Origin: Hydractinia symbiolongicarpus | Taxonomy: Eukaryota > Cnidaria > Hydrozoa > Anthoathecata > Hydractiniidae | Direction of reading: 5' to 3' | NCBI RefSeq assembly: GCF_029227915.1 | Contig: NC_079875.1 | Span: 32,183,501-32,247,500, forward strand | DNA length: 64,000 nt | Shown: one piece after another, positions 4,387-42,476 of the stretch | How the letters are laid out: each line of letters starts with the position of its first letter | Position numbering within the stretch: the first letter of the stretch is position 1 | Notes under the pieces: generated by a model | The model's database searches: none | The model's input: the letters and a program-made list of their open reading frames with translations, nothing else | What the model was told of the DNA's origin: nothing | Program-made: the position numbers and the translations under genes

Positions 4387-5237
4387 ATGCAGCATAAAAT
4401 AAATAATAGGCTGCACGAACAAAGTTTGTGTAAATCTTTACTGAGACTCCATCAGAATAAAAGTTTTAACATTAATCGTGCAATTAACTATAAAGTGATA
4501 GAATTTGAAGAAGACGACTTAAAATGTCATAATGTCCTTGCGTCTGGTGTTTTTGGGACTGTAAGAGGTGGCATTATAAAAAGCATCAAACAAAAAGTTG
4601 CTGTGAAAAAGTTTAATGAACACTCATCAAATGCTGATATTTTAGCAGAAGCCAAGCTGATGTTGGTAATGGCAGGTCATCCAAATTTCCCTTTTATTTT
4701 TGGTATCGTTGGAAATCGTAGAATTGTCATAGAACTGATTGTAAAAGCTGATGGCAGTAGATTACCGACTTTTTATGATGTAATGTCAGCTGATTCATTA
4801 TCGCACAATCAATGGATTTCAGTTCTAATCGTACTATGTAAAGCAGTTCAAGAAATGCACAACCGTGGCATTGTACACAATGATCTACATAGTAGGAATG
4901 TGTCACTTCGTGATGGATCATATGTTAAAGTAATAGATTTTGGTAAAGCTACGCTCATTCATGTCCCTGTAGTGTACGTTGTCAAACCTGGGTCTAAAAA
5001 ACAAAAAACATAAAACAGAATTCCTCGTCATATTGCTTATGAACTAAGAAATGTGCCTGCTTTTTACAATTCTGAAGCAACAGATATTTATTCTGTTGGA
5101 TACCTAATGGACAGACTGTCAGTTCGAATGAAATTTAAAAAATTGTCATTTATTGCATTACATCTAATGGAAAAAAACCAAAAGCTAGGCCACTTTTACC
5201 ATCAGTTGTGAATCATCTTAGAAAAATTATTTTTTAG
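4387..5237 (+). pseudogene. Protein-kinase-domain pseudogene
   Basis: The frame from the ATG at 4387 encodes a kinase-like fold. A degenerate glycine loop (ASGVFGTVRGG, residues 52-62) is followed by the VAVK lysine (K74), an alpha-C glutamate (E88), HNDLHSRNV with D166 and N171, and D184-FG. The HRD arginine is replaced by asparagine and the first glycine of the loop by alanine. A TAA at 5011-5013 stops the frame after 208 residues, yet kinase-like sequence resumes in the same frame (RHIAYELRNVPAF, then DIYSVGYLMDRL). A shift in the A-run near 5171-5177 then restores the subdomain XI motif (KARPLLPSVVNHL) up to a TAG at 5235-5237. One stop and one frameshift argue for a pseudogene. There are no introns inside. 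Confidence 0.75.
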
Positions 5238-6865: not shown

Positions 6866-8069
6866 CCGTAAATGACGCTACCCGTCCCTAAGAGACATTT
6901 TTTCACTAAGCGCCGCTGCTTGAATAACCGCCCCCTTCCTATAGCCAGTGGGCCGCTTATTTCATTACACGGATATCAGAAGGGGGCGCTTATTTGGAAT
7001 AAGGCATAAAAAACAAAAAGTTCCAGATCAACTTTTTGATAATTTGGTAGCATTTGTTTTACATGTCCGCCGCTTGTCTGTGAAACATCCACACAAGGTT
7101 GCTAATGTCATAGGATATGGCTTCTACTACAACAGTGGACGGCTTAGGGAAAAGACAGTGACCGTAAAAACAAAGGGTCATGAGAAATTTCGCGTTTCTG
7201 TTTGCCTCGCAGCAAAGGCTGATGGCACAAAATTGCAACCTTTTATTGTTTTTAAAGGTGTAAAGCGTGAGACAGCCGCAATGGACAAAGAGTTAAAAAG
7301 TTGCTATATATCCTCAAACGGCTGAATGAACCCTGAACTAACCAATATATGCTTAATAAAGTTCTCGGAGCTTTCTAATTTACCCGCTATCTTGTTTGGG
7401 ATTCTTATGATAACACATCGAGAACAGTGTAAAATGTTCTCTACACTCCAAAAAGATTGACGTATTTAATGTACCAGGCAGCTGTACAAAATATATTCGA
7501 GCTCCGGACTTAAGCTGGAACGAACCCTTCAAAGCTCATGCAACAGAAAAATACGATGATTGGCTAAAGGAAAAAGGAATTAGCAAGCTCGCAACCGGGG
7601 GAAACTTTACTCCGCCCCGACGTACAATCGTAAAATTGATCCTGGAGGCTTTGGAAAAAATATTCCAGAAAATATAAAAACCTCTTTTAAATAATGTGCA
7701 CTAAACCGTGCCACAGAAGGATCAGAAAACGATCGTATTCACTGGACATTTTAGAAAGCCAGCTTCCATCTTAACTGAGAAAAATACTGATGCAAATAGA
7801 TGAAAATGTTGTCACAGCAACACGCGAGTTTCTCACAGTCGATTCAGACCACTAAGACGAAGACGAAAATATTGAGATAGATTAATTTTTGTTTAGATGT
7901 TGTTCGTTAAAAGTGAAAAGAAAGAAATGAAATGACACATTTTATTTGTTTTTATTTTAGTAGAGTTAATATGCGCCCCTGCTTAAATACGCGTCCCTGC
8001 CGAAAAAGCTCCCCCCCAAACATAAGAATTTTAAATAAGCGCCCCGAGCTCTTACTCCATCATTGACGG
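6866..8069 (+). mobile_element. Pogo/Tigger-like DNA transposon relic with TIRs and TA target duplication
   Basis: The left end CCGTAAATGACG at 6866 and the inverted right end (CCGTCAATGATG read on the minus strand, ending at 8069) match at 10 of 12 bases. Both are immediately flanked by TA (6864-6865 and 8070-8071), the target site used by Tc1/mariner-pogo transposases. Subterminal DNA at both ends is unusually GC-rich with GCGCTTATTT motifs (for example 6981-6991, and reversed near 8035-8045). The 1.2-kb interior carries a decayed transposase on the plus strand. The boundaries come from the sequence alone. Confidence 0.75.
6948..7900 (+). pseudogene. Decayed pogo-family DDE transposase
   Basis: The frame at 6948-7325 ends in a DDE-core segment (EKTVTVKTKGHEKF, then LAAKADGTKLQPFIVFKGVK) typical of pogo/Tigger/jerky transposases. 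The block expected to carry the first catalytic aspartate is replaced by GYGFYYNSGRLR, so that residue is lost. Further pieces appear in other frames downstream: DLSWNEPFKAHATEKYDDWL near 7510-7560 and TPPRRTIVKLILEALEKI near 7610-7665. A final acidic tail (DEDENIEID) ends near 7883. The multiple frame changes and the missing catalytic block show it is inactive. Confidence 0.75.
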
Positions 8070-8863: not shown

Positions 8864-9410
8864 GCCCTGGGTACAAAGTGGGAAAGGAGTCCGATACGAC
8901 GTTTCCTTATATTTTTGTGCAAAATAAAAAAGGCCTGGGTACAAAGTTGACAAGGAGTATGACACGCTTATTTTTATGCAAGATAATGAAGGATCCTAGG
9001 TACAGAGTTGGAAAGGAGTCCGATACGACCTCTCTTCATACCGTCATACAAAACAATAAATGGCCTGGGTACAGAGTTGAAAGGAATCGGGCCCTGGGTA
9101 CAAATATAAAAAGGAGTCCGATACGACGTTTAATAATTTTATGCAAAATATCAAAATACCCTGGGAATAAAGTTGGAAAGGAGTCCGACCTGACGTCTCT
9201 TCATGTGTTCATGCAAAATAATAAAGGCCCTGGGTACAAAGTTGGAAAGGAGTCCGTTATGAAATTCTTAATATTTTTGGGTACAAGGTTGGAAAAGAGT
9301 CCGATAACGTTTCTTAATATTTTACACAAAATACCAAACTTGGGAACGAAGTTGGAAAGGAGTCCGATACGACGTTTTAAAAAAAGATCTGGGTACAAAG
9401 CGAATAGTAG
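8864..9410 (+). repeat. Minisatellite with GTTGGAAAGGAGTCCGATAC core
   Basis: About nine diverged units of roughly 55-70 bp. Each combines CCCTGGGTACAAAGTTGG, AAAGGAGTCCGATACGACGT and a TTTATGCAAAATAATAAAGG tail. Frames through it (both strands) look protein-like only because of the repetition. The core GGAAAGGAGTCCG recurs in an independent array at 21521-21611. Confidence 0.9.
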
Positions 9411-9931
9411 TCTGAGAAGTCATTAGGAAAGTTAACAACTGGGAAAAAAAACTGAAAAAATGTTAGGTAATAAAACAAGTCACAGGGTGAATTTCAACTA
9501 CCTACTCCCACTATGCTACTTATAAACCATATTTTAAGTTGAATTCGTATCTAGTTATAATAAAAACAAACAAAAGAAATGTCTATTTTTTGTTACAAAC
9601 TTAAAAATGCTTTTTGTAACGAAAAGTTTTTGTGAAGTTACAATTAACTCTGGCACTTTTTTACTACTTGTGCATTTTCCTAAATTTTTCTTGTAGAAAA
9701 GGTAGTAAAAACGTCGTAAAAAGGAATATAAAATAAGCTTAAAATCAAAACTGTGACAAAAACCAAAAAATAATACGTATTGTCCGAAATTGCAACATAA
9801 GAAAGACTAAATATAATCCATGAAACAATACTAAAACAAACTTTTTTAAAAAAAAATACTTCTCAAATTATTTTGCCAAAAATTATTTGTTTACTACTGA
9901 AACTAACAAATATCACATGACTATGTACGAT
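9411..9931. other. 3' flank of the SET-recombinase gene
   Basis: AT-rich sequence downstream (on the minus strand) of the last exon. AATAAA-like signals occur in the minus-strand sense, but I could not single out a polyadenylation site. No gene is visible. Confidence 0.35.
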
Positions 9932-10132
9932 TTACTTTCTTAGTTTTTTTTCATAGTCAAGTCTAGTTCTTAATTGCATATAATTATAGTGAGACAACTT
10001 TCCGTCTAATGCTTCCCGTATGCAATCTTCAGTAATGGGACCTCCTGCAATAATACCTTTACATTTCTTATGGATTATCTTCAAATCTGCATCGCTAAAT
10101 AATCTTTTTCTTTTTCTAACATTAAACGCCAT
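9932..10132 (-). CDS. Conserved C-terminal module, last exon of the fusion gene
   Basis: After the acceptor TTTTTTACAG, 66 codons and a stop form a small basic domain. Its pattern R-K-x-FS-(x)4-I-x3-C-x2-II-x2-GP-x-T-x-D is followed by ALDG and QLRTR..YE. The same module ends the paralogous gene at 42243-42476, also in its own phase-0 exon. The two mini-exons before it (10670-10605 and 10530-10483) are polar and serine-rich. I do not recognise the module; it could be a DNA-binding or assembly domain. Confidence 0.75.
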   Translation of the reverse strand: MAFNVRKRKRLFSDADLKIIHKKCKGIIAGGPITEDCIREALDGKLSHYNYMQLRTRLDYEKKLRK

Positions 10133-13100
10133 CTGTAAAAAATAGTATTGGAAAGGTTACCATGAATAGTAATTCTACCAAAAAACATCGGAACTAACAT
10201 CGGAACTAACCCGATGCTCAACTTTAAAATTTACATAAAGGTACGTTTTATATCATTGTGATTGTGTTTTTCTTCAATAGCAATTAATAAATTCAAATAT
10301 CTGAATTTATACAATTTGTGCTCGAGCTTAATTTTTGTTGCACACTCCTTTCATGTAAAACCTTAACTGATTTATTATTTACTTCGATCAGCACTACTTA
10401 TGCTACGACTACATTTGAGTGGAAAGCTTTTTTAAGCAGCTTAACCACTTTCTAACCTCCCCTCACATTAGCTCGCACTTACCGAAGAAGTGACTTCAGC
10501 GGCGTTGTCCTCCTGATTTGAAGTCCCAATCTGAAAATAGTATGCACATCGTTTATATGTAATAACCCTATTTGCAATTTTTAAACATAGGTAAATTTAT
10601 TTACATTTGTAGAAATAGACTGCGTGGATGCACTTGCAGAATTCAATCGATTAGGAACAGCTAACTGTCTCTAAAAGAAAATTAAGTGATGATAATTGCC
10701 ATATAACATGGCAACAGTTGCGTCACCACTAAGTACTCTTAGTTATAAAAAATTAAATATCTGAACACTTGAATTGGCACGTTGGGAGTAAATTACTTTT
10801 AACGAGCGACAGGTGGCTTCAAAATCCTTTTTATGAAAAAAAGAAACCCATATTTGATAACATTTTATATACATCAGACGAATTGATAACATTTCTTACG
10901 TTACATTTTATAGGTGAATAACGAATCAAGCTTCTTAGTTTGTCACAAATCTGTCTGTCACTGACTTGGAAATAAGGCTGTAATTGCGCAGACTTTTTTC
11001 GTACATTTTCGATGTTGATTTCCTTTTTCCCGATTTCGTCAGCAAAAGCTTCCTGCAATTTGTTGATGTCTTCAATTTTCCACTTGTGTCTTGGTGATGC
11101 AGGTGGAGAAGATGAAATATTCTCGTTCTCTCTAAAATAACTCCTAATTACTTTGCCACCTTTTGCTGCTGCTTCCTGCTTTTTTCGTACAAAGTAGTGC
11201 TTGTTTGCAGTGTCCAGGCTGTGACACATCAAATCAGCTACCTCCTGGTTCATGCCCATACCCTTTCCCCGAATACCAGTTGTTGTGGACTTTCGAATTA
11301 TATTACAGCTTAAATTTTTAATTGGAACATTTCCGAACAGATCTGCTTTAGCCCACAACTGGTGAATTCGTAAACTTATCTGTCCAGAGGTCATAGCACT
11401 TCCCGTCCAGGACAAAAAAACATTGCGGCACTTTGGCTTTACCTGTGGACGAATTTTGTCAGTAAACAGCTTTAACCAACCAAATTCGATCTCCGACATA
11501 GTGATTGTAGCTGGTCCGTATGCATATGCTGTTTTGTGCTGTTTAACGGAAATCTGACACAAACCATCAACCCTCTGGCAAGCATCAACTTCAGAAACCA
11601 AAAGATTAGCTGACACTCCCGAACGGTGACCATTGGCAAAATGTATGACCGAAAAAAGATGGTCCCGCATACAACAATACTCAGCTTGAGTCACGGAAAA
11701 ATCTGAACTTTGCAACTTGAGAAAAAAAGATTTCGCGTTGACCGCATTTTCGCTTTTTTCATAGTTTTGCAGCTGTTGTGGTGTAACTAGCATTGAATGA
11801 TCATCGATCTCCCGCTCAAATCTACGTTCCTTATCCAATTTTTTATAACTTTTTTTCCAGACATTTAATTTTCTTTTTAAGTCAACAACCTTTTCAGGCC
11901 CAACTGAGGTCAACTGTACCCTCTCTGTGATAAGAAACTCACAAAAAACACCAACCGAAGATAAATATTTTTTGATAATTCCTGGTAAATTCTCACGGCT
12001 TTTGCAATGCTTTGCCAAATATTCGTCACGGAAATGTTGACCATCAAAAAACATCGCAAGGTCTTTATTTGCGCAAACTATAAGGTAAATTCGTTTAACG
12101 TCTTCCACAATTTGTTCGAAAGATGTACGGTTACCTCCGTCCGGTCCTTGCAAGTAGGCCGCAAATTTTTCAAACAGCTCTTTGACTTCGTTAGGTAAAG
12201 TATTCTCTATATCATCGCAGTCAAGAGCAAACTCAGATCCATCACTGTCGCTAAACAGTAATGGAGATTGAGAGCGGCTTTTGGAAGTGATCAAGTCAAC
12301 AGAATGCACCGGCAGTTCTCTCCTCGGTATAGACGTGAAGGCATGCGTGACTTGATCAGATTCCGCATTATCCGCTATTGGTACAATCATTTGCTCAGCG
12401 GCTGGTAAAGATGTTTTTGAAAAGCTTTTTTGTTTACTATCCGCCAGTGACTTTGATTTTATATTTTGAAATACTTTACGAGGTGAACTGTCCACAACGC
12501 CAATTATTTGAATGCTATTGCACATTACGGCACTGTCAAGCAAGGCACGGTACTTCTCCTTGTTTTCAATCTTGTGAAATTTTCGCAGATGTTTCGGCAG
12601 ACGCTTCAATACTTTATAACACCCTTCCACTGGACAAATTCTTGATGTGTGATAATCCTTTTTCTGCAATGTTTTTTGTGTCTGCCTTCTCAACCCAAAT
12701 TGACCAATAGCAGCATCTGCACTTGCCTTTGACCACTTGTGGCACAATAACAAATGCCGTGCTAAATTTTTAACCATTAGAGAACAGGAAGTAACTGGAC
12801 ATTTGAAATTTGATCGATACCTAAAAGGCGAAAATTGATTTGTATTTGACGTGCAAAAATTCCAATCCTTTACAGTCACACAGCCGCAACGTGTAAACGA
12901 TTTTCACAGAAAACTCCTTCTAAAATAGGAAATTAATTGCTTAGTGCTGTTTTAAGTTTTAATACATTTCCTAAAAAGTTATAGAAAAGGTAATTGGTGG
13001 ATACCTCTTGTTTTCACTTTTCAGCAAATTTTTGTCATCATTTATCTTAGCCCCATTTTCCTTGCCTACTACCACCTCCTTACCATCATTAGTCTCCTTA

Positions 13101-16100
13101 TCAGCCCTCACCTCAACTAGACCTTCCTCATCCTTTTCATGTACACCACTTTTCTTCCCCACCTCTTTATCAACCCTCACCTTTACTGCACACTCCTCCT
13201 TCTTTTCACCTACACCACTTTTCTCCCCTACCTCTTTACCAACCCTCACGTCTACTGCACCCTCCTCCTCTTTTTCAGCTACACCACTTTTCTTCCCCAC
13301 CTCTTTATCAACCCTCACCTTTACTGCACACTCCTGCTTTTTTTCACCCACACCACTTTCCCCCCCTACCTCTTTATCAACCCTCACCTCTACCGCACCT
13401 TCCTCCTCTTTTTCATGTACACCACTTTTCTCGCCAACCTCTTTACCGCCCCTCACCTCTACAGCACCCTCCTCCTCTTTTTCACCTACACCACTTTTCT
13501 CCCCTACCTCTTTATCAACCCTCACCTCTGCTGCACCCTCCTCCTTTTTTACATGTACACCATTTTCATCATCTGCAACCAATTCCCCACTATCATTACT
13601 TTCCTTTTTAACCCTCACCTCAACTGCACCCTCCTCCTTTTCACTTACAACACATCCTACAGCAATTACTATTTCCCTTTTCTCCTTGTCACAGACAAAA
13701 TTGGGGTTCAGTACTTGAAAGTCCACTTGACGATCTTCATTTGCTTTTTTGTTCAAATTGCTGGTAAAACTTTTAATCCCACTAAGTTCCTACGAAAAAA
13801 GTTCATCAAGCATTACAATAAATCCTTATTTCTATTTAGATAAGTTTACTCAGACAGATTTACCTCGGACGAAGTTTCATGGAAAGCTTCTGTCTCATGA
13901 TAAAGAAGGAAATCATCAGCCTAAAAAGATAGCATGAAACTGTAGATTAAACAAGTTTTCAAAAATGGTTAGGGAGTCGATACTCTGAATACACTAACAG
14001 AGACGAAGTACCTTTTGCCTGGAGACATTACAACATGACTCATACACCAAAACCATGGTCTCTGGAAAAAGTACTTTGAAAACATAATCGAAATACTAAA
14101 ATAAAAAAAATTGTACACACAATGTTATACCGAAAAGTTACCATTTAGTTGAGTGTTGAAGAAAGTTGGATGCACACTAACCGTCATAGTATCTTTGCAG
14201 AACCAGAGCATTAACGTGTCCAAAATACACTTCTGTTGAATGTCAGAAAAATCACCGATTCCGACTTGCATATTCAGCATAGCTTAAGAATATAATATCA
14301 AAATAATTAACATTTCGTAAGTAACTATCTTAATGAGGACATAAACAGTTAGCTACCTCGGCTACACCCCCTTCTTTAAATGTATCATGTCTCGCATTTG
14401 AAACCTATGTAAAATAAGATGATGTATGATGCCTGAAAAATCAATCCATTAATAATAATACCTAAGAAAATTTCTTCCAAAGAATAAGGATCAAACCTTT
14501 CATTATAAAAAAATGTAAAGCATGCAATTCAAGAACATGCACATATGAGTCAAACTGACCTTACACAATGTCTGTACTCTCAAATGTAAATAAAAATATA
14601 AAGTAAACAGAAACAACAAAAAAAGAAATGAAGATACAAATATTTCAAACCTTCCCCTCGAATATTTTAAAAATATCATCTTTAAGTCTTGCCAGAACAC
14701 CTGACAGTTTTTTTATAGATATTTCACTCATATTTCTGAAAAGGATAAAATAAGTTAAATTCATCTTCACCACTTGCATCACCAAGACACAAGTGCACGA
14801 TTGAAGACATCAATGAATTGCAGGAAAGTTTGTGCTGATAAATTCAGAAAATTGAAATCAACATAAAAGATGTGTGAAAAAAGTCTCCGCAATTACAGCC
14901 TTACTTCCAAGACAGACAGATTTGTGAGAAACTAAGAAGCTTAATTCATTATTTTAAAATGTAAAGAAAGTGTGGTATCTGTATTATTCCTGTAAATTTA
15001 CATTTTTTCTTAACGCATACCTTCTTAAGGATGGGAAAACATCATTCAACGGTTTGCATTCCCCAATGAGTTCATCGATTTTTGTGAAGTTTGTGGTGGT
15101 CTTTTTAAATATTGTATATTCTTCACTGTTTAAATGCTAGAATACACAATAATAAAACATAACGACCTTAAAAGTATTGCTTTTATGAACTAAAGTCAGT
15201 AGTGGCAAGAATTATTACTTAAAAATTACTACCCAGGCCGATGCTGACTATATTATTCTGCATAAATTATGTTGCTAACCTCATTTAGATCAGAGAACGA
15301 TACGTCGCAACATTCACAATACTTTCTGCATTTTTCCATTACATGGCAATCTTTTGCCATGCTTGACTTTCTAAATTAAAAGGCTTATAAAATAAGGTAT
15401 ATAAAATAATATGTCTTACAATATTTAATAATGACGTCTCCTGCATTTTTATTAGAGAAACACATTGGCGACTTTCAGTCAAAAATTTAATCCTAAATTT
15501 AAATTTGTTAACACACCTGCATATGTTTTGCAAAAAGAAATTTGACGACATGCAGTTCAAGTCTTCCGCATAAAATGGTTTGAAAATCCTAAACAGATAA
15601 GTCCAAGCTTTAATTTTTTAAAAAACTACAAACAAACAGAATAAGTAGAAAAATGTCTCACTTTTCCTTATCTCCAACTTTTATAAATGGCTCCTTTAAT
15701 TTTCGCACCAAAATATTATCTAAAAATTTAAAGAGGTTATTAACCTGTACCCTAAAACTGGTTTGCACAAAAAATATTAACAACACAATGAGCCATAAAA
15801 ACCTCAAAATCTTGAAACAACTTTAAGAAAATCCCTAGCCTCAACGTGTTAAAATCCAATTAAAAATTAAAGAAATCTTCAAAAAAAAAAACAATAATTT
15901 TAACTTCAAATAAAAAAAGTATGCAACTAGTTCAATTTTAAAAAGTCAAAAAAGAGGAATAAAAACTAAGAAAATATTCAAGAAATTTCAGCCTATATTC
16001 AAATATTTAGCTAAAAAACGCTCAGGTCAAAAAACTGTTTTCTTATAAGAAAAAAAACGTGTATTAAACACTCATTTAAATAAGTTGGAACATTGAGATT

Positions 16101-17694
16101 TATACCTTTAATGAGAAGAAAAGTTCTGTACGAAATTGTACCTTTTAAAAGACATATAAATGTTGTCATGAAATACAGTTTAACATACCTTTTTTATCAC
16201 TGAAATTACTGATAACCTTAAAAAATAAATACAATTATTGGTAAAAAAAAAGTATGGTTATGCAGCAGTCTCAGATACAATTATTTTATGAGCCAAGAAC
16301 TTGTGGTAGTGGTAGAACAGCTGATGAGTTGTACTTGAATGTATGGAAAATCCAAAAAACCTTTTAACTAAATGTTACTAATTTCATTTTAAATTCAAAA
16401 TTTTCTTCTTTTATGACATAAAACAAAAACTGGGTTAAAGGTAAAGAGATGGAAATGGGCATTACAAATTATAAAAGAATATTACCTGCTCTCCATTTTC
16501 AACAAAAGTTACCTCTACAGCCTGAAAAACAAGAACATACATCTCATTTACACTCTAATTTAAATATTTATGAATGTACAGCAAGCATTTAATTATCATG
16601 AATTGATAGACAAATTTTAAATTTTATTGAAACATGACATAGGACTATTTTAAAAATACAGCAACATCATACTTTTCCAGTTGGCGTTATATTTGCCAAT
16701 AATATTGGTTCACAACAGTTTTCCTAGAACAAGAAAATATTATTTACCAACATTGTTTACAAACATTGACGAGCCTGCTATTTTTATTCTAAACGATTAA
16801 CTTACTTTCTTACGCCATGGTAAGTTTGTGTCATTGTAATTGTATCGTAGCTCTGTACCAGTAGGAATATCTTTTGTTGCTACCAAAAAAATTCCTGGCA
16901 TTCCACCCTTTTCGAATTTTTTCATAGTGCAGTTCGCATATGCAGGTGGTGAATCATTTACAAAACGGCAAAGGCAGGATGACAATGTAGCATCAATACT
17001 ATAGGAAAGAAACGTTAACATAGTCCAACTTATATTCCCATAAATATAAGTTAAGTGTGATAAATGCACATACAATATAACTACCTACCTCAATTTTTTT
17101 CCATTATGCTTTATATCAAAAATAAAGCATCCTAACTTTCTACGACAGTATTCTTCTCGCTTTACCTCTGCCTCTTTTTTTGATAAAAGCTTCCCCTTGT
17201 ACTACAGGAGGATACTGCCTTTGGATACATTTTGCGTAGTAAAAACACCATAGCCTGAGATTAAAAAGATAAAAGTTACTACATTAATTTTTAATAACAG
17301 ATATTCAAAGTATTTCAATATTATACATTTGTTTAGTTTTGTTTTGCACTAAAGCTTTTACCTATAAATTCATCAATAAATATTTTCTTTAAATATGCAG
17401 GATCGTGATCTGCTAAAACGTTTAATATTTCTTCTTGAGTTGAACCTTTTCTCTAAAAAGATAAAAACATAAAAGAAGAAAGATGTATTACAAAAGGAAT
17501 AACTTCACACATAATTAAAAGGACATAGAATTTTTTTAAATTGACACGATAGGACATAGAATTACAAAATGAATCTACATCACCACTTTAAATTTTTACT
17601 AGCAATTAACTGAAATTATTAAAAAGGGGAACTGATAATAACTATGAGCATAAAAATAAATCTGATTTTTACTTACCAATTTTCTTGTGTTCAT
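9932..17694 (-). CDS. SET domain-zinc finger-tyrosine recombinase-SANT fusion gene (20 exons)
   Basis: Exons on the minus strand: 17694-17677, 17452-17362, 17254-17089, 16998-16806, 16723-16673, 16521-16486, 16216-16189, 15719-15662, 15588-15517, 15370-15280, 15136-15021, 14735-14651, 14404-14368, 14282-14182, 13920-13864, 13789-13005, 12820-10900, 10670-10605, 10530-10483, 10132-9932. All introns are GT-AG and every phase matches, giving 4,221 nt (1,407 codons including the stop). The one in-frame interruption is TAG codon 54 (17202-17204). Domains: SET about 37-156, cysteine cluster about 246-259, acidic 23-residue repeats within 401-661, zinc fingers 667-690 and 723-745, tyrosine recombinase about 870-1210, SANT-like 1239-1295, conserved C-terminal module 1341-1406. 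The start is the ATG at 17694; earlier exons cannot be excluded. A paralogue at 35.8-42.5 kb has the same order. It could be a domesticated transposase fusion or a Crypton-like element; which one is not known. Confidence 0.8.
10900..12820 (-). CDS. Zinc finger-tyrosine recombinase-SANT exon (17) of the fusion gene
   Basis: A 1,921-nt exon. Two C2H2/C2HC-type fingers come first (CPVTSC...RHLLLCH and CPVEGC...KHLRKFH). A core-binding-like helical region and a tyrosine recombinase catalytic domain follow. Visible catalytic residues in fusion numbering are R1061 (HRSGVSANL), K1091 (QHKT), R1171 (NIIRKSTTTGI), H1195 (MCHSLD) and nucleophile Y1204 (HYFVR). The R-to-Y spacing of 143 residues fits the family. 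The usual histidine of the HxxR box is asparagine here. A SANT/Myb-like helical domain (WKIEDINKLQEAFADEIG) closes the exon. The frame does not start with an ATG; the open frame upstream of 12820 is intron. Such enzymes cut and rejoin DNA through a 3'-phosphotyrosine intermediate. Confidence 0.9.
13005..16723 (-). CDS. Linker exons (5-16), including a cysteine cluster and acidic repeat
   Basis: Twelve exons between the SET and recombinase regions stay in frame. Exon 10 (15370-15280) carries a cysteine/histidine cluster, CHVMEKCRKYCECC, which may bind zinc. Exons 12 to 14 have counterparts of matching phase in the paralogous locus; exon 12 is exactly 85 nt in both. Exon 16 (13789-13005) encodes an acidic-basic region with eight degenerate units of the type EEGAVEVRVDKEVGEKSGV. 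The period is 23 residues (69 bp), so it is a coding minisatellite. The donor at 13005 (AAGAG|GTATCC, phase 2) joins exactly to the acceptor at 12820. This is the key link uniting the SET and recombinase parts. Confidence 0.75.
16806..17694 (-). CDS. SET-domain exons (1-4) of the fusion gene
   Basis: Exons 17694-17677, 17452-17362, 17254-17089 and 16998-16806 join into MNTRKL plus a SET domain resembling the KMT5A-like group of lysine methyltransferases. The GxG-type motif is GYGVF (residues 37-41). The RxxNHS box is RFVNDS (103-108, histidine replaced by aspartate, as in the paralogue). The ELxYDY box is ELRYNY (141-146), followed by NLPWRKK. The TAG at codon 54 replaces the expected acidic residue in the LLEYKG-type strand. 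No alternative GT-AG pair of plausible size removes it, so the SET part is a nonsense allele, a pseudo-exon, or contains a base error. If translated, the expected activity is methylation of histone or other lysines, but this is inference. Confidence 0.8.
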
Positions 17695-19990
17695 TTTGCT
17701 AAAACTGTGCTTTATAATTTATGTACTATGTAAGTTTTCTTTAATCTAATACTGATTTAAAATTTGAATAATATTAATTAATACTGGTTAGCGTTTATAC
17801 GAACATTGTGTCTACTGCAAAATTGTTTTTCGGATTTATGTAGTATAATGTAGTATAAATGTATAACCTGTTGCATTACCACCTTATTAAAAAGAAGTTA
17901 GGTAACAACTGATTTTCTGTAAATATCTGTAATATGTTTTACCAAATCTGTCACAACTATAATACTGAACTTCCATAATTTTTAAAAAAGTCTATTGAAT
18001 TTTACACTTGAGCATTGACTTCCATAGATTATTTTAAAATACAAGTGGCCATAACAACAATAAAAGAATAATAAACTACACAATCCTTCACTTCAATTTT
18101 TGACTTTAACTGTATAACTTACCCAATGTTTATAAATTATTTTCAACTTTCTGAATATATAATCAAAACTGTAAGCCAAATATTTTCACCTATCAAATCA
18201 AAATAGCAGTAGAGACGACAACATCTAAAATGCAATTTTTGTAAGCATAAGCTTTACCTATTTTTTTATAATTGTCACAGACAACTTTTGGTCTTCACAT
18301 GCTGGCCAGTACTTGATTTCCAACACACAACAACTCTTAAAACAAAATTAGAAAAAAAAGAAAACCAAAAGAAGGTTCTAAAGTAAATTTCTTAATGTGT
18401 TTCAATCTGTTGAGTAAGTTGAGTAAAAATTTTTAAGATAAAATACGGATTGTTTCATTGTCATCATCAGTCAAAATATACCATACATAAAAGCTAGTCG
18501 TAAAATTTACTAAAATGACAAAATAGAAATTTATCTTTATCAAATTTCTTTCATGCTTTCCTAAAACATCTTATAGTAAAAGTTATATAGTAAAAATAAT
18601 TATTACACTAGATACATTATTAAATAACTTTTTCACAAAAACACCTGTGGCTCTGTTAGGTATATATGATAATGGTAACAATGGGATTTGCAGTTTGGAA
18701 TAAAAGAAACCTTTATATTGCCCATTTTCAAGATCGTTCATGATAATACACAAAATGCAATGGGTCATACAATAAATTAATTTAGTTCTTTTGTGATATT
18801 TTATTATATACAATTACATTCAATACTCATAATACTCATTTCTTGCTTAACTTAAAATCTTTCAAATGTCCAGCAGTTGAAAAACAAAAAACACAAGCAA
18901 AATGTGCAGATGTTTCTCTTTTAAATATATTTATATACATCACATCTTACTGGTAAGATATTTGCCACTCAACATTTTTCAAAAGTTTATGAGCATTTAC
19001 TCATGAAGTTACACTATTCTGACAACATGTGTCAAGTGTTTTACAGAGTATCATCTATACTGAATTTATAAAAGCAGCCGGAAACACAACACAAAGTATA
19101 TTAAATGATGATGGAGTACACTAATCATACACCTAGCAATTAGATTCATACAAGTTTGGATGGGACATGAGCAATAAAACTTTCCTGAATAATTTTATAC
19201 TTGGAAATGATTCAAAAAACGATTTGCTTTACTCTTTGCCATGTTTATTTTACTACTAACGGTAACAGTACAAACATTTGAATAATAGAAGCAAAATTTA
19301 AAATATGGTCTTGGAAAATCCTCAATATAAAAATATACATATATATATAATTTATTTGATAAATATAAGACTGCTTAGTTTGAAAAAATATTATTGCCCA
19401 TCTGACTGTCTTTTGCAGGAGGTGGAGAAACAGAGCATTATAGATTATATATACATTACAGTATATCAATACGACAAACTTTCTTTTCCAAACTCAGCTA
19501 GCTGACTATAGCTCTTGTTATTTTTTTATTTTTTAAATATTTACTTGAGCTCGATTACTCAAAATTTTTTAGAAAATGTAGGAAATTTGACTTAAAGAAA
19601 AATAAATAACGATCTTTAAAAAGTGAGAAAAAACAACAAAACATCACCCGCCACTTGAGCAGAGTGTAGATTTTGCAATGTATCTATACTGACTTTCATT
19701 CTGTGAGAAATGTGTTGTACTTTGTTTATTTGATGATCATCACATGTCTGTAGTACAAGCAGTCTGTGTCTAGGTAATGAAGTCTAAAATAATGAGTAAG
19801 TGTTTGAGATTGATGGTAGTTTGTATAGTCACCAAAGACACTAAGTTTTAAAAATCACTGCTAAGAAAGTATGTATACCGAAAACCTTAACAGTGTATAG
19901 ATGATAAGCATAACAACCTAAAAACTATAGTTATCGTGACAAAAATATACTGGTTCAAACCAATGTGTTATATTTTCTGCATTGAAGTGC
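17695..19990. other. 5' flank of the SET-recombinase gene; no other gene seen
   Basis: AT-rich sequence (many A and T runs) containing only short chance frames on both strands. The promoter of the minus-strand gene should lie just above 17694, but I could not assign motifs. No repeats of note. Confidence 0.4.
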
Positions 19991-20620
19991 ACAGCTACCA
20001 ATGAGGATGCTGACTCGCCGAAAACGCTGTATGTTATGTAACCATCCGGGAAAGCCTGGGCCCGTCCAAAATCGCCCGAATTGCGCCTGAAATGCTATGC
20101 GTGCGAGGCTCATTGGTCTCATTTACATTTTGTCGCGAAGAAGGAAGGTGCTATTTTGTCGTTTACTCTCAGTTTATGTGTGGGATTATATTACAGCTAT
20201 ATTTATCGAATAAATGATATAAAAAACTTCCACTGTTAAGGAGTGACTATTAGTCTACCATTATGTTGGTATTGGGTACCTTAACCATGCCGTTATGTGC
20301 CGATATGCAAATGCGCTATAATGGCGCGGTAGCTGTACTTTAAAGTATCTACGGACTTCATTAATACACAGAAGACAAACATTTATGTCAATATAGATAT
20401 ACGCGTTCTTATTGCGTTTACTAAGCCTCTGTCATAACCAGAGATTTACGTCTAACATCCACTACCACTGCTCGACATTGAAAGAATAAATTATACATCA
20501 TGGCAATAAATGTTTAAAAAAAATTTTGTTTCGGGTTGATTCAGGTTTCTCCGGGCCGACAGCCCGTGGTTTTTGCGGCGTTTCCGGCGAGTCGGCACCC
20601 TCATAGCTATCATTGGTCAC
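19991..20620. repeat. GC-rich inverted repeat, MITE-like
   Basis: The left arm at about 19995-20085 (contains GCTGACTCGCCGAAAACGCT) pairs with the right arm at about 20530-20620. The right arm, read on the minus strand, contains GCCGACTCGCCGGAAACGCC. Both arms are far richer in GC than their surroundings. Arm identity is only moderate (roughly two thirds to three quarters by eye). No coding potential lies between. A non-autonomous element with long inverted ends is the simplest reading. Confidence 0.5.
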
Positions 20621-20745
20621 AGCGGTATGGCCTTTTGGCTTTAACAATTGAGTGGCAGGCAAAAAGATGCGGGCGCTAGATAAAGTGAGGTCCTTTTTAG
20701 TCTGTTTTTTCGCATGACGGTATCATTACGACTTTATATGAATAT

Positions 20746-21012
20746 ATGTCAATCAGAAATTATCCATCTACACTCGATAATAGTTTAAAGCCTGAAAAAT
20801 GTTTCCATAGAAAGAAATGGGCTGAAAAAGACCTTTCTTCAGCAAGCTTCCGCATCTTTCTGCCTGCCACACAGTTGTTAGAGCCAGAAGGGCTTACTGC
20901 GGAAAATGTAAACATTCAAAAAGGTCTATACATGTTGACTGAGGTGGTTGCAGTTTTAGCCAATCTGCTGACCATAAAACATGCAATTTGGTATGTCTAT
21001 ATATATATATAA
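20746..21012 (+). CDS. Short hypothetical frame, possibly an exon
   Basis: An 88-codon ATG frame with mixed composition (MSIRNYPSTLDNSLKPEKCF at the start, then a hydrophobic segment LTEVVAVLANLLTI). It includes a possible donor (CAATTTG|GTATGT) near 20988, shortly before the stop. I do not recognise it and have no second exon. It may be a chance frame. Confidence 0.2.
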   Translation: MSIRNYPSTLDNSLKPEKCFHRKKWAEKDLSSASFRIFLPATQLLEPEGLTAENVNIQKGLYMLTEVVAVLANLLTIKHAIWYVYIYI

Positions 21013-21520
21013 GAGAAAGATACTTTTATCCAAACTAAAGAAAAGATTTTTTAGATTGGAAAGTTGGTGTGCCGATAAAACCAAAAATTAAAATATTCAC
21101 AGTTCGGTGAAGAAGCAGATGCCCAGATCAGAGGATCTAATGCCTGAATTAAGAGATATCCCTAACTTGCTATAGCTATAGCTAGCTAATGCCATTGCCC
21201 TTTTTTGTGTTAAATAGCCATTAGCTAGGTAGTCTTTAGCATAAAAACAAAGATAGATCATTTTTGTTAAATATCACCTTCTTTTACTTCTCACATCACC
21301 CCAAGAAATCTTTAAAGCTAGCTAGCTATAACCTTATACACAAATAGCAACGTACTCACAGCGTTTATCCCCAAGCAACAAGTCTTTGCTTTGAAATAAA
21401 GTAACCATATTCTCCCCTTAACCACGTGTATTATATTATTTCTTCCGTCTCCTTCCTCGCCTCTGAATTTGTAAACTTTAACTGGCAAATTTTACGGGCA
21501 GCCGATTTTTAGATTGGGTA

Positions 21521-21611
21521 GGAAAGGAGTCCGTTTGGAAAGGAGTCCGAGCGTTGGAAAGGAGTCCGGCCGAGTTGGAAAGGAGTCCGCTTCGTGTAGG
21601 AAAGGAGTCCG
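21521..21611 (+). repeat. Five-copy GGAAAGGAGTCCG cluster
   Basis: Five copies of the 13-mer GGAAAGGAGTCCG start at about 21521, 21537, 21556, 21577 and 21599, with variable 3-9 bp spacers. This is the same core as in the larger minisatellite at 8864-9410, but here it lacks the long flanking unit. A (TTA)n microsatellite follows at about 21627-21676. Confidence 0.9.
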
Positions 21612-21676
21612 TCAACTTTCTTCTTCTTATTATTATTATTATTATTACTATTATTACTATTGTTATTATTATTAAT

Positions 21677-35813: not shown

Positions 35814-36185
35814 TTGGCATAACTCAGTCCGAGGGAGAAAAACGTATGACAACATACAGTGAAGCAGCAGGATCGTATCTCCTCTTTTTCAAAGATATTT
35901 GGTAAATATAGATCAATGTTTGTCATGGCACATTCGTGTGACCACTTGCCTTAATCAAAATGATAATATTTAAAATGGATTTTTATTTTTAATGAATTTA
36001 GCATTGATGCCACTTTTGACAATCGCCTTAGCAAATATGTCAATGATTCTCCATATGGAAACTGTGTTATGCGTTCAGTTCAAATTGAAGGGCAATTACA
36101 CCTATGCTTGTTTGCATTGACCAACCTCTCATCAGGGATTGAGCTAAGATATTCATATGGTGTACCTGGTTTACCTTGGAGAAAG
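35814..36185 (+). pseudogene. SET-domain exons of the second fusion locus
   Basis: The first exon encodes GITQSEGEKRMTTYSEAAGS and YLLFFKDI and ends in phase 2 at 35901. The next (36002-36185) restores the canonical CIDAT strand across the junction, then SKYVNDSPYGNCVM, an insertion-free core and ELRYSYGVPGLPWRK. The NDS variant of the NHS box is shared with the first locus. The upstream strand with GxG is degraded and out of frame near 35780-35812. The identical location of the intron relative to the protein supports common descent. Confidence 0.75.
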
Positions 36186-38299
36186 GTTATTAGTTTACCT
36201 TACATCAAAATTAAAATACATGCTTATCTATTGACAAGAGTTTATTTTATTTATTTCAGGATCGTAAAAGAAAATTTGCCATGAATTTGAGCATGATTCA
36301 GTCAATAAGTTACAGCAAATGTGAATGGACAGTTGACCTTCTTTTATTTGACTTTGTTGGTTATTTAAAATACTTTTATTTTTTTAAGAATAAAGACGAG
36401 TCCATTTCTAATAAAGATACTATCCAAAAAGGTGAAGAGTGTTATTATTAAGTGTAGTGTAATTTGAAAGTGGAAAAGAGAATAAAATATTCATATTAAC
36501 ATTCTTTTTGTTTCTTCATTTTGTAAAACACTGCACATTCCGTATATGAAGTATTGTAGTGATAAAATCCATACTTTAAATCGAATTAATTTTCAATTAA
36601 AAGAAAGAATGACGTGTCGTGATGGTGTAGTGCACGTCGATATTGAGCCTGGTGTTGATACTTCTGAAGTAAGAATAGACTGTGAGAATCTTTAAATTCT
36701 GAAAGTCTAAACTTTACATTTAAGGTAACTCTCCATATTCTTTGTATCTTTCTAGGAAAAAGACTGGTTGCAGAAAAATCCCAAGACATTCAGAATTATT
36801 TAGTTGAGATTTTGATACTCAGTGACCTGCAGCTAGGTTGAGTATAAACAAAGCAAGACTTTAAATAATTCAATGTCCCACACCAGGTCAAATATGTTTT
36901 GCATCGTCTTAGAGTATTCAAATTTTTAATTAAAATTAGTTCTTATTTTTTGACAGAAACTTTACTTTCTTCTATAAAATTATTTGTAAAAAGAAAAGCA
37001 TTCAAAGTATTATTATTTGCCTTTGTCTTCATATTGTTTTTTCAAACGTAAAAAACAGCTTCTAAATTCAATAGTTAAGTATAATATATTCAAGGGGGGT
37101 TGTTGCATTTTGTTTCGTATGCTGTCTGGCTTATATTATTAATAATAACAACAAAACAATAAAATTTGCATGCAGCGTACAAGACCTACTACCAAATAAC
37201 TATGGGAATTTAATATTTAAATACCGCAGATTATTTGATAAGTATTTTACGTTACAGATGTATCATAATCATAGTAATATCTCTCTACACCATTATTAGA
37301 ATTACACTGAGTTGGAGATGAAAGATGAAAAGTTGTCTTGGGTGTCTTTCCAGTGAGTTTTTTTTTTGGTTATTAAGCTTGTACTGTCATCTAATTGTTC
37401 TCTTAATTTTAATTTCATTATTTTTGTTTTGTTTCAGAAATTTAAAAGATGTTCCTGAAGATGTAGTAGTGAAAATGATACGCCATGTAGGAAAAAAAAT
37501 TTTGGATATTTTTTCTGGAAAGGTAAATAAAAATAAATGATTTTCATTACAGAATTAACAATCTAGAAATTCGTTTTTCAAAATTAGTTAAGATAAATTG
37601 TTATGTGTATAATATTGTTTCTGTAAATTATATAATCTCATAATTTATTGTGTTTGTAGTTTTTTAGGAAAACCCTAATTGTCATTAAAATGTAAGCTTT
37701 TACAACAAATAAAATTTGTAAACAGTCTTTGTTTTACTTATGTACCTAGGTTTACTGTGAGAGACATGAAGCATATAATTTAAAGGGAAGAAAAAGAGGT
37801 GCACATTACTCCATGTTTATATTTTATTGAATAAGTATAGATGGATATTCATAATTTTGATTTTTTTTCAGCTTGCCTTGCAATGGAGGTATCCTTTGGT
37901 AATTTCACAGATTACTTATTACACAAATTTACACAGATTACACAAATTACTTTTGCACAGTGCATTCCAAAGTAAGTACCTTTTTCAGCAAATTACACTC
38001 CTCATTGGATTTTTATTCCAATAATTACTTCACAGGACACGTGACTTTTTATTTAGTATTTTGATTATGTGGCTTCAGAGTCTCTTTAGCACCAATGCTG
38101 ATAAGGTAAAATTTGTGTGTTGCAAGTAAATGCTTTTTAAAATTTTTAAAGTTATTTCTTATATCCCTCTTTTTAATAGACGATGTTAACCAAACCCTCT
38201 ATAGAAGAGGACGACGTAGATGAGAATAAAGATCTTACTGTAGTAACGGATGTGTTAGTTGCAAACCAAGTGGTGACAATTGATGACAATCCGAAGGAT

Positions 38300-38657
38300 A
38301 ACATGTCTGTGATAATTGATACAGATGAACAAATAGATGATGGATTGAATAATTCTGGAGAAGTTAACCATGAAACTGAAGTAGATATTTCCTAATATGT
38401 TAACTGGGATAAAGAAAAAGTTTAATTCATTATCACTTTATTTTTATTAATTTCAGATATGTTGCTATTGTCAAAAGAGACATGTCTGTGATAATTGATA
38501 CAGATGAACAAATAGATGATGGATTGAATAATTCTGGAGAAGTTAACCATGAAACTGAAGTAGATATTTCCTAATATGTTAACTGGGATAAAGAAAAGGT
38601 TTAATTCATTATCACTTTATTTTTATTAACTTCAGATATGTTGCTATTGTCAAAAGA
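38300..38657 (+). repeat. 179-bp tandem duplication in the second fusion locus
   Basis: The unit from ACATGTCTGTGATAATTGAT to TTGCTATTGTCAAAAGAG occurs twice, offset by exactly 179 bp (for example C at 38302 and 38481). Only about two mismatches were seen (one in an A-run, one T/C before TTCAG). It includes the end of the acidic exon, an entire short intron and the start of the cysteine-rich exon, so splice sites are doubled. Near identity implies it is recent. Confidence 0.9.
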
Positions 38658-38985
38658 GAAAACCTCCAGGTGAAATGGGCGAATGCAATGCGCTTTTGTG
38701 TGTTACATACCAAAAATCTTTTTGCGAAAACTGTCTGGAATCTCATTTATGCCGCAAGAAGACTGTCCTAAGGAATGTGAAGGTACGAATATTTGTTTTC
38801 ATATTTATCACTGCGATAACAAAATATTTAAAGATAACAATCTGATCTGCCAGTATGTTTACCTCTGATTTTATTTGTATTTTTAGGTCTGTATTGGATG
38901 TAACAAGGAGGTGTTTGCAGATAGATTTGATAAGTGTCGGCAAGATCACTGTAAATTAAAGAATCAATTATTTTGCGCAGAATAA
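38636..38985 (+). CDS. Cysteine-rich exon pair
   Basis: After TTAACTTCAG, 38636-38782 encodes 49 codons in phase 0 with CCYCQKRK, CNALLC, CENCLESHLC, then a donor (GTGAAG|GTACGA). The acceptor TATTTTTAG leads into 38887, encoding VCIGCNKEVF...KCRQDHC, with a stop at about 38983. The CxxC pairs suggest a multi-zinc module. I do not recognise the family. It sits between the acidic linker and the small exons preceding the recombinase fingers. The stop suggests either an alternative 3' end or a separate inserted gene. Confidence 0.45.
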
Positions 38986-39840
38986 GTGGTAGAGCACGAA
39001 TGTGAAATTAACCAGGTACACCTGCAATTTATATTTTGATTCAAAGCAAAAGCGATTTGCGTAGCCATTTAAAGATGATTAAATAATGTCGATGCGAAAT
39101 TTATACAGTGTTCGTGATAATCATAAAAAAGGAGGCATATTTTAATTAAGTTAAATAAAAAAGTCTTTCAGTATGTAATATTTTCACTTTGTTTAGATGG
39201 AGGAGTCACCAGTCAAACTAAAACGTGACCATAAAAGTGCACTTGAAAATAATGGGGTAATGACGCTAGCAAGCATTGGTTGTTATTAATACCAGTCTTC
39301 AATTAGGGAGCAAGTAAATTAAGTGTCTGTAATGTTTATTTTGTAGTATTCGAGGTAGAAATTAAACAAATCAAGGAACAGGTTTCCCGTTTACTGGAAC
39401 AAAACGATTTCAGGGCTATACAAGAGGTAAACATTTCATACATTATAAGACCTGGCGAGAGTAGGCTTATAAAAGCACAAAATAATTCACCAATTTAAAC
39501 ACTGTATTTTTATTCACGTGTTGTTACTGAATCCTTGTAAATTATATTTTTTAGAGTCTTGAACGATTAGAGAAAGTGACTAACAATGAGAAACCCGATC
39601 TAAATTTGTAAGTATAATTCATGCGTTATTATAATTAATATCGAACATTTGATGAAGGGATAGACTGAGATATGCGATGGATAAGTTTCGAGAGACACTT
39701 CTATTTTTGTTAAATTAAAATAAACGTATACTTATTTAGTGAAAAATCTAATAAGTAAATGGTGCAGACATTTACTGTGTGTTAAATTTTGTGCTTGTCC
39801 AACTTTGTTAGCATACTGAAACTACTTTTATTCCTTTTAG

Positions 39841-41437
39841 AAAGCAAAAAATAACGAAGCGACGACAAATAAAGTGTCCCATTAAGTGTTGTTCGAAACC
39901 TGTCACAGACGTTTCCCGTCATTTGCGTGAAGTACACAAGTGGTGCCGAGAAAAGGCTGTTGGTGCCATGGAAAAGTTTGACTTAAGAAAGAAACACAAT
40001 AACAACAAAGGGAAAAGAAAAATAAATAACGCAGAAAACAACAAAAAACTGCGTGATTACCATAAAAAAACGGTGGTGCCCCATTGGTTCCTGTGAAGCT
40101 GCAGTACTGAGATTGAACGAACACTTGCTCAAAGTGCATCACATACCGCGGGGCTCTGCAGAACAAAGGAGACTTTTAAAATGTGTTCAAGTAAAGGTAA
40201 ATTTGAAGGCTCAATTGCGAGTCAGTTTGAAGCCGAGGGTGGAAGAAGTCCAAGTAAAAAACACGAATGAAGTTATGCACGATCGACAAAGCGCCAAAAG
40301 TTCGGAATCAGGTTCTTCTTCCAAATTTAAATCTGACACCGATTCCAAATACCAGCCTCAACAAGAAAACGTCCAGTCCCAGCAAGCAGTTGACAAAATT
40401 CCTTGTTGATCAGTTTTTTAAGTACATCATTTCAGCTGACGGAGGACAGAAGAACGAACAAGCATCAAAGCAAACAGCATCGCAGATCAAGAGAATGTAT
40501 ACTGTGATAAAAGCTTCATCTGTCAGTGACATGTTCCAACCGAGGCTTTTGAGAGACCATTTTTTGACAGAATATTGTAAGGAAATGAAATATGAAGCTG
40601 ACACGGTTAAGAGATACTTAAGATCACTTGGCGATTTCTGCGACTTCGTTATTGCAGAAGAGGTGGAAATTCCAAATTGTTCCTTAGAAAAGGTGTCAGT
40701 GATGAAAATGAAACTTTTGGCATGGTCGAAAACCTACAAAAAGCAGTCAAAGGAGAGATTCTGGGAACGACAAGAAGAGGATGAGATCATGATGGTTACT
40801 CCTCAGCAAATTTCCACCTATAAAGGAAGTGAACATAGCACGGCTGCCATTAAGCTGTTTGGTCAATACGCCAGCCCATACTGTCAAAATATGATAAACA
40901 TGACAGATTTTTGCATAATAAGAGATTTCTTGTTTGTGGAGCTACATACGAGCACAGCCCAACGCTCTGGTGTTAGTGCAAACATGAAATTAAAAGAATT
41001 TGAAGCTGCACTTCAACAGGATGATGGCGGTTATGTGATCAAAGTTAGAGATCACAAAACCTTTCACGTGTATGGGCATGCCATTGTGATACTAGAAAGA
41101 CATGTGTTTGATTGGCTATCATTGTTCGTTAATAAAATACGCTCTGAAATTAGCGTTTGTTGTCCATATGTTTTTACATCATGGTCTGGTAAACATATGG
41201 GATCTGGTGCTATCAGTCGTCAGCTGCACAGTCTTTGGCTAAAAGCAGGCATTTATGCATTGACCGATAAGTTACCTAAAAATCTGAGTTGCACAATATT
41301 AAGAAAAAGTGCTAGCACTGGAATTCGAGAAGCGGAAACTGGTTTTTATGCTGAATCAGCTGCGGCAATGTCACATAGCATCCAAACTGCAGAAACGCAC
41401 TATGTGAATCGTAAAAAATTAAATCAATCTAAGCAAG
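39841..41437 (+). pseudogene. Zinc finger-tyrosine recombinase exon of the second locus
   Basis: After CCTTTTAG the frame encodes fingers CPIKCCSKPVTDVSRHLREV with HKW and, after a 1-nt shift in an A-run near 40065, CPIGSCEAAVLRLNEHLLKV with HH. A second shift near 40385-40405 leads into the 395-codon recombinase frame. Catalytic residues are kept: R in QRSGVSANM, K in DHKTFHV, R in TILRKSASTGI, H in MSHSIQTAE and Y in THYVNR. The HxxR histidine is threonine here (asparagine in the first locus). It ends at the donor AAGCAAG|GTAAGT in phase 1, continuing to the SANT exon at 41878 (GYFHG, then SWTTEEERILKSAFADKI). Confidence 0.85.
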
Positions 41438-42242
41438 GTAAGTCCTTCATTTAAAGTTGTCCGTGAAGTTTGTACATTTGTGGTTACTAAACGCCATAAC
41501 TTTATGGCGTTACAGGAGTATAAGCGTAGTTGGTTTTCGTTTGTTATTTTTTAAATTAACGAATAACAGAAGCATGAGAATGAAATTAGGTTTGCTTTTA
41601 AAGAGTAAAAATTTTGCGATAAGAAATTTCCGAGGTTTCAAAACCAGCATATTGCCCCAATATATTTTTATTTTTTTCGCGTTGTATTTCGTTGATTTAT
41701 TTTCATCATTGACGTTTTTCCTTGTTTTGTTGTTGTTGTTGTTGTTGTTGTTGTTTTTTGCGAATTCAAGGTTGTGGTTAGTTCTTCTGACTTAATTTCG
41801 TGACTTAGGGAGAAATTCTGGACAATGTCTGATAGTAGAAAATTTTACACAATATCTATAATTTGATTATTACATAGGTTGTAAAGTGGTTCGAGGGTAT
41901 TTTCATGGAGAAGTGGACTCAAAGTATGGCGCAACTGCATCTCCAGTTTTGAAATACGATGCTAAGAGATCATGGACAACAGAAGAGGAGAGAATTTTAA
42001 AGTCTGCTTTCGCAGACAAAATTGTGGAACGAAATGTTAAAATTGAAGACGTGCGTCAGAGGTATTTCTCCTTGAACATTAAAGAAATTAATCGTTAAAG
42101 AACAGACTGATATTGTGGAATCTGAGCACCTTGACGATGACTCTAAATCAAAAGAGGTATGAAATATTTATAGTGTTTTACGAATGTCATCACAATATGC
42201 ATAAAAAATGACTTGATGATTTACTTTCTTTATTATGTGTAG

Positions 42243-42476
42243 ACCAATGTAGCAGCGTCTCAGTCATCTGTCGTTGCATCCAGCAATATTGCCCGACGAA
42301 AAATGTTTTCAGAAGAAGAAATCGAGGAAATTCGTCAGCGATGTGGCCACATAATCAAAAGTGGGCCAAAGACGGATGATCTCATTAAAATGGCCTTAGA
42401 TGGCTCTATGCTTGTACAGTTAAGAACGAGGATTAATTACGAAGCGTCCAAAAGAAAAAGCATTTGCCGGATGTAA
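42243..42476 (+). CDS. Terminal module exon of the second locus
   Basis: Acceptor TTATTATGTGTAG, 77 codons and TAA. The module RRKMFSEEEIEEIRQRCGHI followed by IKSGPKTDDLIKMALDG and QLRTRINYEASKRK aligns with residues 1341-1406 of the first gene. The 5' part (NVAASQSSVVASS) resembles its serine-rich mini-exons. The exon itself is intact. Confidence 0.75.
   Translation, partial: TNVAASQSSVVASSNIARRKMFSEEEIEEIRQRCGHIIKSGPKTDDLIKMALDGSMLVQLRTRINYEASKRKSICRM

Follow-up and report, generated by a model that had tools for sequence, protein, structure and literature searches.

A probable Crypton-like mobile element of Hydractinia symbiolongicarpus with a SET domain alongside its tyrosine recombinase

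Introduction

Do a SET domain and a tyrosine recombinase lying close together on one strand of the Hydractinia symbiolongicarpus genome belong to one gene, and is that gene a lone fusion or part of something that moves? The question is raised by a locus termed gene A here (9932..17694, minus strand; RefSeq LOC130649709 region). It was found in the window, the 64,000-nucleotide stretch of DNA that was analysed (C1:32183501-32247500 of the genome), to which the gene A and copy B coordinates below refer. The original prediction knew of no such protein in the literature, and this was right within the open-access literature searched: no SET-tyrosine recombinase protein was named there in titles or abstract openings.

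Results

Exon chain and domains of gene A

From 17694 to 9932 on the minus strand, 21 exons can be chained with GT donors and AG acceptors throughout and with compatible phases, and the gene is backed by Pfam matches and by identity to the database protein P0001. Its parts follow in the order SET, zf-DBF, middle domain, repeats, two zinc fingers, tyrosine recombinase and C-terminal region. The original prediction of twenty GT-AG exons in one frame holds for the splice sites and the matching phases, but the exons number 21 and a single frame fails for gene A as assembled, because codon 54 of the chain, within the SET domain, is an in-frame TAG stop (17202..17204, minus strand). An alternative splice around this stop, inspected by eye, would bypass the GxG part of SET. 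With its SET domain cut by the stop, the most that the assembled copy could yield is a recombinase protein lacking an intact SET. Codon-usage scores of 15 of the 16 tested exons exceed the 95th percentile of introns, the model frame often scoring no better than other frames. Weak splice sites are present at exon 13 (donor GTGTAG) and exon 14 (acceptor CTTAAG); exons 12 to 14 are backed by a second copy in the window (copy B), with an alignment score of 74 against 22.7 ± 4.3 for shuffles, none of 2000 being as high.

The SET domain (16806..17254, minus strand) is composed of exons 3 (17254-17089) and 4 (16998-16806). Spliced, with X at the stop, it gives a full-length Pfam match (1e-13, profile 1-105), and exon 4 by itself reaches 7.2e-07. 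The full profile is also found in two relatives elsewhere in the genome, L029 on C4 (6.1e-14) and L026 on C1 (3.4e-15), between which the SET differences are distributed 49/35/83 over the three codon positions of 131 codons, with third positions in excess. In a comparison of SET groups, for which the exon 4 fragment was the only query, values of 3.7e-06 (ASH1L) and 2.3e-05 (KMT5A) were obtained. NHS is a motif of other SET enzymes. The SET domains of gene A, copy B, L026 and L029 (four of four compared) carry VNDSP and no NHS; with NDS in place of NHS, SET catalysis is putative.

The DBF-type zinc finger is encoded in exons 10-11 (15021..15370, minus strand), and its Pfam zf-DBF match (1.3e-10), obtained from the spliced chain with X in place of the stop, crosses from exon 10 into exon 11. 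A decayed antisense piece of the SANT-like region (14719..14970, plus strand; 81.6% DNA identity, several stops) overlaps exon 12 and introns of gene A. Exon 17 (13005..13789, minus strand), placed by the splice chain, carries an in-frame coding 69-bp minisatellite (6.9 copies, 13094-13567) and has a phase-2 donor at its end. The joint from there to the next exon (13005/12820), which had been singled out as decisive, is indeed of phase 2 in gene A, and phase 2 is also found at the start of the zinc-finger/recombinase exon (39841) of copy B.

The recombinase and the C-terminal region

Exon 18 (10900..12820, minus strand) encodes, according to structure model and alignment, two C2H2-like zinc fingers, a tyrosine recombinase (11110-12186) and a SANT-like region. 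The recombinase frame (12903-10834) is intact over 690 codons, and its origin by chance was ruled out, since no frame exceeded 146 codons when the bases of the window were shuffled 20 times. P0001, which is isoform X2 of H. symbiolongicarpus LOC130649709, is 100% identical across the recombinase part of gene A. This isoform starts with MVKNLARHL in exon 18 and contains no SET; its exon 18 to exon 19 junction uses an earlier donor than the 21-exon model, and isoforms are hence annotated.

With the gene A recombinase as query, nothing was obtained in Pfam, NCBIfam and PDB sequence searches, so that its identification depended on relatives and a structure model. A BFVD search returned integrases and viral proteins without names, which was of no help in identification, and no relative was found in searches of viral and prokaryote contigs; all relatives with a named source are hydrozoan. 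The structure model (pLDDT 91.6) has a fold of the XerH/Cre/XerA type, core-binding domain included; an earlier model from two sequences (pLDDT 49.1) was set aside. Among 17 alignment rows, two of which represent one locus, R188, K218, R298 and H322 are invariant and Y331 is nearly so. The first His of the R-H-R-Y tetrad is replaced by Asn in nearly all 17 rows, by Thr in copy B and L009, and by Lys in L014. The modelled fold and the aligned active site place the predicted product of gene A in the tyrosine recombinase superfamily, and the recombinase proposed originally was confirmed through relatives and structure model, without Pfam recognition. Recombinase differences are distributed 153/125/230 over the codon positions of 333 codons, with third positions in excess. 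The phylogeny of 16 recombinases is star-like (2 of 13 inner branches well supported) and therefore does not tell a gene family from a transposon.

The predicted SANT-like C terminus is at best suggested by profile comparison (Myb_DNA-bind_4, E 0.12, in one relative only). The last exon (9932..10132, minus strand) contains a conserved C-terminal motif, and similar stretches are found in copy B (42294-42458), P0003 and P0012.

Copy B and other features of the window

Copy B (36002..42458, plus strand) is a damaged paralogue recognised by sequence comparison with gene A. It lies on the opposite strand, its recombinase is 39.5% identical and its parts follow in the same order, namely the second half of SET (36002-36185), middle exons from 37438, 37750 and 37872, the zinc-finger/recombinase exon from 39841 with the recombinase at 40393-41437, a SANT-like region (41877-42089) and the C-terminal stretch, all on the plus strand. 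The first half of SET was not found in copy B, no donor could be placed for the third of its middle exons, and the frame shifts twice between 39841 and 40393. Where compared, phases are common to both copies at the second half of SET, the three middle exons and the phase-2 entry into the recombinase exon. Copy B also contains a 179-bp tandem duplication (98% identical, 38301-38659). Copies 92-99% identical to the surrounding region (window 33-44 kb) are located at C1:26.22 Mb and C1:27.66 Mb (L018 and L019), and their recombinase frame is of equal size; judged by these sequences, the three look less like fresh transposition than like a damaged copy that was duplicated.

Several other features were recorded in the window. 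One fragment (58197-58706, minus strand, with possible parts to 60451) has no Pfam match, and from the motif KNRHRIST...MGHSEDINKNVYQAP we take it to be a third tyrosine-recombinase-like piece, of another type. A 543-codon frame (46339-47967, plus strand) encodes TNP-like transposase domains (PF21787, 7.8e-31; PF21788, 8.5e-17), and transposase remnants are located at 22972-23535 (plus strand; DDE_Tnp_1_7, 4.1e-07) and presumably at 6945-7322 (plus strand), a pogo-like stretch without Pfam match. Exons of a ubiquitin-specific protease-like gene (PF00443, 3.6e-10 and 1.8e-07) are found at 61214-62088 (plus strand).

SET and recombinase in one protein

That SET and recombinase belong to one gene is best shown elsewhere in the genome. 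SET and recombinase queries both match C4:6127852-6131628 in the same frame, and the stretch fetched there, L029, has a single unbroken frame of 1272 codons (1008-4823). It encodes SET, zf-DBF (9.9e-12), a pair of zinc fingers and, of the recombinase, everything as far as box II. The frame stops before the last active-site residues, the tyrosine-bearing end of the recombinase being in another frame. The C1 and C7 copies (L026, L027) have two open frames each, one for SET-DBF (518 and 517 codons) and one for zinc fingers and recombinase (785 and 826 codons). In the Clytia protein P0012, SET residues at the start are joined to the same recombinase (score 91 versus 20.8 ± 3.8, reached by 0 of 2000 shuffles); by Pfam alone, its SET scores only 0.12. 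P0012 is the exception among the five named database proteins of the family, the other four being without SET. Predicted fish proteins that resemble KMT5A may be further members.

Genome matches were obtained at no fewer than 151 places for the gene A SET, a figure that may include ordinary SET genes, and at 78 or more for the recombinase of a paralogue. Around 51 recombinase loci, which are not independent because some are near-identical copies, a SET match lies upstream on the same strand in 16, 17 and 18 cases within 5, 10 and 15 kb, respectively. Downstream on the same strand the counts are 0, 0 and 3, on the opposite strand 0 at all three distances, and the chance expectation is 0.03, 0.06 and 0.09. 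No SET match within 15 kb was present at 33 of the 51 loci, which counts against the reading preferred here, and SET was not found in the fetched regions of two sets of copies with recombinase frames of 701 and 707 codons.

Two adjacent genes, wrongly joined in the exon chain, would also place a SET domain upstream of a recombinase. This is the explanation to which the SET-less isoform X2 would point, together with an AATAAA at 16628 in the intron after the SET exons (such hexamers occur at 1.8 per kb on that strand) and the failure to find any database protein of ~625-1988 aa with the SET side of the locus. The latter negative is weak, because a similar protein search with the long gene A model found none although P0003 and P0012 are in the database and in the length range; an exon-length query recovered P0001 and also P0003 and P0012, the two that the long-model query had missed. 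Wrongly joined genes are, however, hard to reconcile with the unbroken frame of the C4 copy, with the linkage of both parts in Clytia and with the phases shared by copies A and B, and we regard them as very improbable. The predicted union of SET and recombinase in one gene is partly supported: the family speaks for it, with the 1272-codon frame and the 16 of 51 loci, whereas at this locus, with its TAG stop and its isoform without SET, it is not supported.

Dispersed copies of the family

The family includes several sets of near-identical copies. Five copies of the 701-codon set, on different chromosomes, are 97.4-99.9% identical over 7.8-8.5 kb, and four copies of the 707-codon set, also on different chromosomes, are 97.3-99.9% identical over 9.7-9.9 kb. 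The SET-bearing set on C1, C7 and C8 is 97.8-98.6% identical over 6-9.8 kb; in the C8 copy, ~1.85 kb of the recombinase is missing. C4, C11 and C7 carry shortened relatives (98-99% identical among themselves), from which ~1.1 kb separating SET from the zinc fingers is absent and whose recombinase is interrupted by stops. In L026 (9.9 kb, with its left end beyond the stretch), the only two frames of at least 100 codons are SET-DBF and recombinase, and no reverse transcriptase was found. An 89-bp tandem array (14-21 copies) is located upstream of SET in the sister elements L033 and L026. P0005 represents 53 member sequences at 90% identity, which hints at a high copy number in its source.

The dN/dS values are 0-0.33 for the 701-codon frames (10 pairs), 0.35-0.59 for the 707-codon frames (3 pairs, the fourth copy being without the frame) and 0.52 for the recombinase of the SET-bearing set (one pair). 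The third-position excess in SET, which reflects longer times, and in the recombinase speaks for selection, as do the low values of the 701-codon set; the SET-DBF frame of the C1/C7/C8 set (0.50-1.77, 8-11 differences) and the P0003 pair (1.98, few differences) speak against it.

The right end reads ...GGAACATCC(TAA)n at all five SET-bearing loci whose right end falls in the fetched stretch, and the flanks past the (TAA)n end are unlike each other at the three loci read. The motif GATGTCAGGCTATCC forms an array on the left and occurs once at the right end, with none between, in the C1 and C8 copies; the positions are the same in the C7 copy. Neither a target-site duplication nor a left end was established for the SET-bearing elements. 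A search for shared end motifs around copy B, L009 and L024 found none, and at L014 it gave just one A/T-rich word; the ends of these copies may lie outside the stretches.

The gene A locus as an element

Gene A is flanked by two arrays of the 13-bp motif GGAAAGGAGTCCG, five copies on its 3' side (8881..9366, plus strand) and five in the same orientation on its 5' side (21521..21611, plus strand); all ten are on one strand and none was found elsewhere in the window. The zones flanking gene A share 10 13-mers (one of them A/T-rich), whereas random zone pairs share at most 9 (0 of 249 reach 10). A 16-bp form of the motif occurs 32 times in the whole genome, compared to once for a control, and 29 of these are located in four paired arrays, those of gene A and three others on C1, C4 and C6. 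The spacing of 69/110 bp in the 3'-side array of gene A is shared with the C1, C4 and C6 copies, and the distance between paired arrays is 12.2 kb at gene A and 4.7-5.4 kb in the C1, C4 and C6 copies. These copies match the window piecewise (80-100%), first up to 9918, starting at 7700 or further left, and again, past a gap of 67 bp, over 17600-21674. Similarity to all three ceases at the end of a (TTA)n stretch (21627..21674, plus strand), and 21674 is, by this sequence criterion, probably the end of the element; the left end, left of 7700, was not found. Missing from the three copies is a segment of ~7.6 kb with exons 2-21 of gene A (9919..17532), the left edge of which was observed at 9918 and the right edge inferred from the 67-bp gap in each copy.

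In place of the coding segment, the three shorter copies share one junction. The simplest reading of these alignments would be a full-length but damaged element at the gene A locus and three internally deleted relatives. The common junction, and the fact that gene A is the sole copy found with the segment, could also be explained if 9919-17532 had been inserted into an older repeat, the three copies then being empty sites instead of deletion derivatives. An insertion is, however, difficult to align with a segment that starts within intron 1 and runs as far as the stop codon, so that exon 1 is not part of it, and a sister family has a similar end-motif layout around its own gene; we consider it quite unlikely and retain the full-length element with deleted relatives.

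Gene A might further have arisen from such an element by domestication and now be a host gene of which only the recombinase part is still used. The SET exon DNA is single copy (its sole genome match is itself), and gene A is intron-rich, the 20 introns being an unusual number for a transposon and counting against a transposon reading; in addition, the 690-codon recombinase frame is intact and RefSeq holds a gene model with annotated isoforms. The three shorter copies, on the other hand, keep the flanks of gene A without the coding segment, as a transposon and its deleted relatives would, and the active site is kept, unlike in the DUF3504 genes described in the parts of PMC3212892 drawn on here. 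Domestication is in our view unlikely, and a mobile element is preferred.

Discussion

The answer to the opening question is that gene A makes up, with good probability, the coding portion of a Crypton-like mobile DNA element in H. symbiolongicarpus. The lone fused gene of the original prediction was not borne out; gene A looks like a member of a dispersed, many-copy mobile-element family. Most likely it is an old, damaged copy, and the shorter relatives were moved by enzymes made elsewhere. Somewhat less firmly, we favour a hydrozoan lineage of tyrosine-recombinase transposons that encodes its own SET domain in the recombinase polypeptide, so that one enzyme would mark chromatin and cut and rejoin DNA; SET and recombinase would have stayed together while the elements transposed and diversified many times.

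In such an element, the zinc fingers and the C-terminal region would bind short motifs that are repeated close to the ends of the element, in this case the GGAAAGGAGTCCG arrays. The recombinase would excise the element, probably as a circle, and rejoin it elsewhere beside TAA-rich microsatellite DNA. The SET domain may act on histones, or on other proteins of chromatin, by methylating their lysines at the donor or target site, which could help expression or target access. Chromatin usually acts upon transposons; an element whose recombinase contains SET could itself deposit marks, on its own copy or at the target. A laboratory animal would then offer a direct test of how chromatin marking is linked to DNA insertion.

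Cryptons (CryptonA and CryptonI), as presented in the parts of PMC3212892 drawn on here, resemble the gene A family in the tyrosine recombinase, in the dispersed copies and in the internally deleted relatives, and they are reported there from a cnidarian, Nematostella; in the stretches read of the gene A family, no reverse transcriptase was found. In the same parts of that source, animal Cryptons are described without a C-terminal domain and no terminal repeats were found. Unlike these, the gene A family has SET, DBF and C2H2-like fingers, a C-terminal region, introns and end motif arrays, and it has Asn for the His of the Crypton R-H-R-Y tetrad. Because the tetrad His is absent, domains are added and end repeats are present, gene A is not filed as a Crypton, though its element would work like one. 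WOC/ZMYM, KCTD1 and QRICH1 (DUF3504 genes) are alike in that a Crypton-type recombinase is combined with zinc-finger or other regulatory domains; as far as those parts of PMC3212892 describe them, they are host genes that have lost most catalytic residues, whereas the gene A family keeps five catalytic positions and its copies are dispersed.

SETMAR (Metnase) likewise joins SET to a DNA-breaking enzyme from a transposon. That enzyme is a mariner transposase of the DDE type, which in primates became joined to a SET gene of the host, whereas in the gene A family the partner has a tyrosine recombinase fold and SET travels inside the mobile element, which would be a natural source of SET-recombinase fusions. 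DIRS1-type retroelements, according to the part of PMC3537659 drawn on, combine a methylase and a tyrosine recombinase in one mobile element. Theirs is an N6-adenine methylase and a reverse transcriptase is present, while the gene A family has SET, and no reverse transcriptase was found in the stretch read. SETMAR and the DIRS1 elements are parallels of the gene A family rather than demonstrated relatives.
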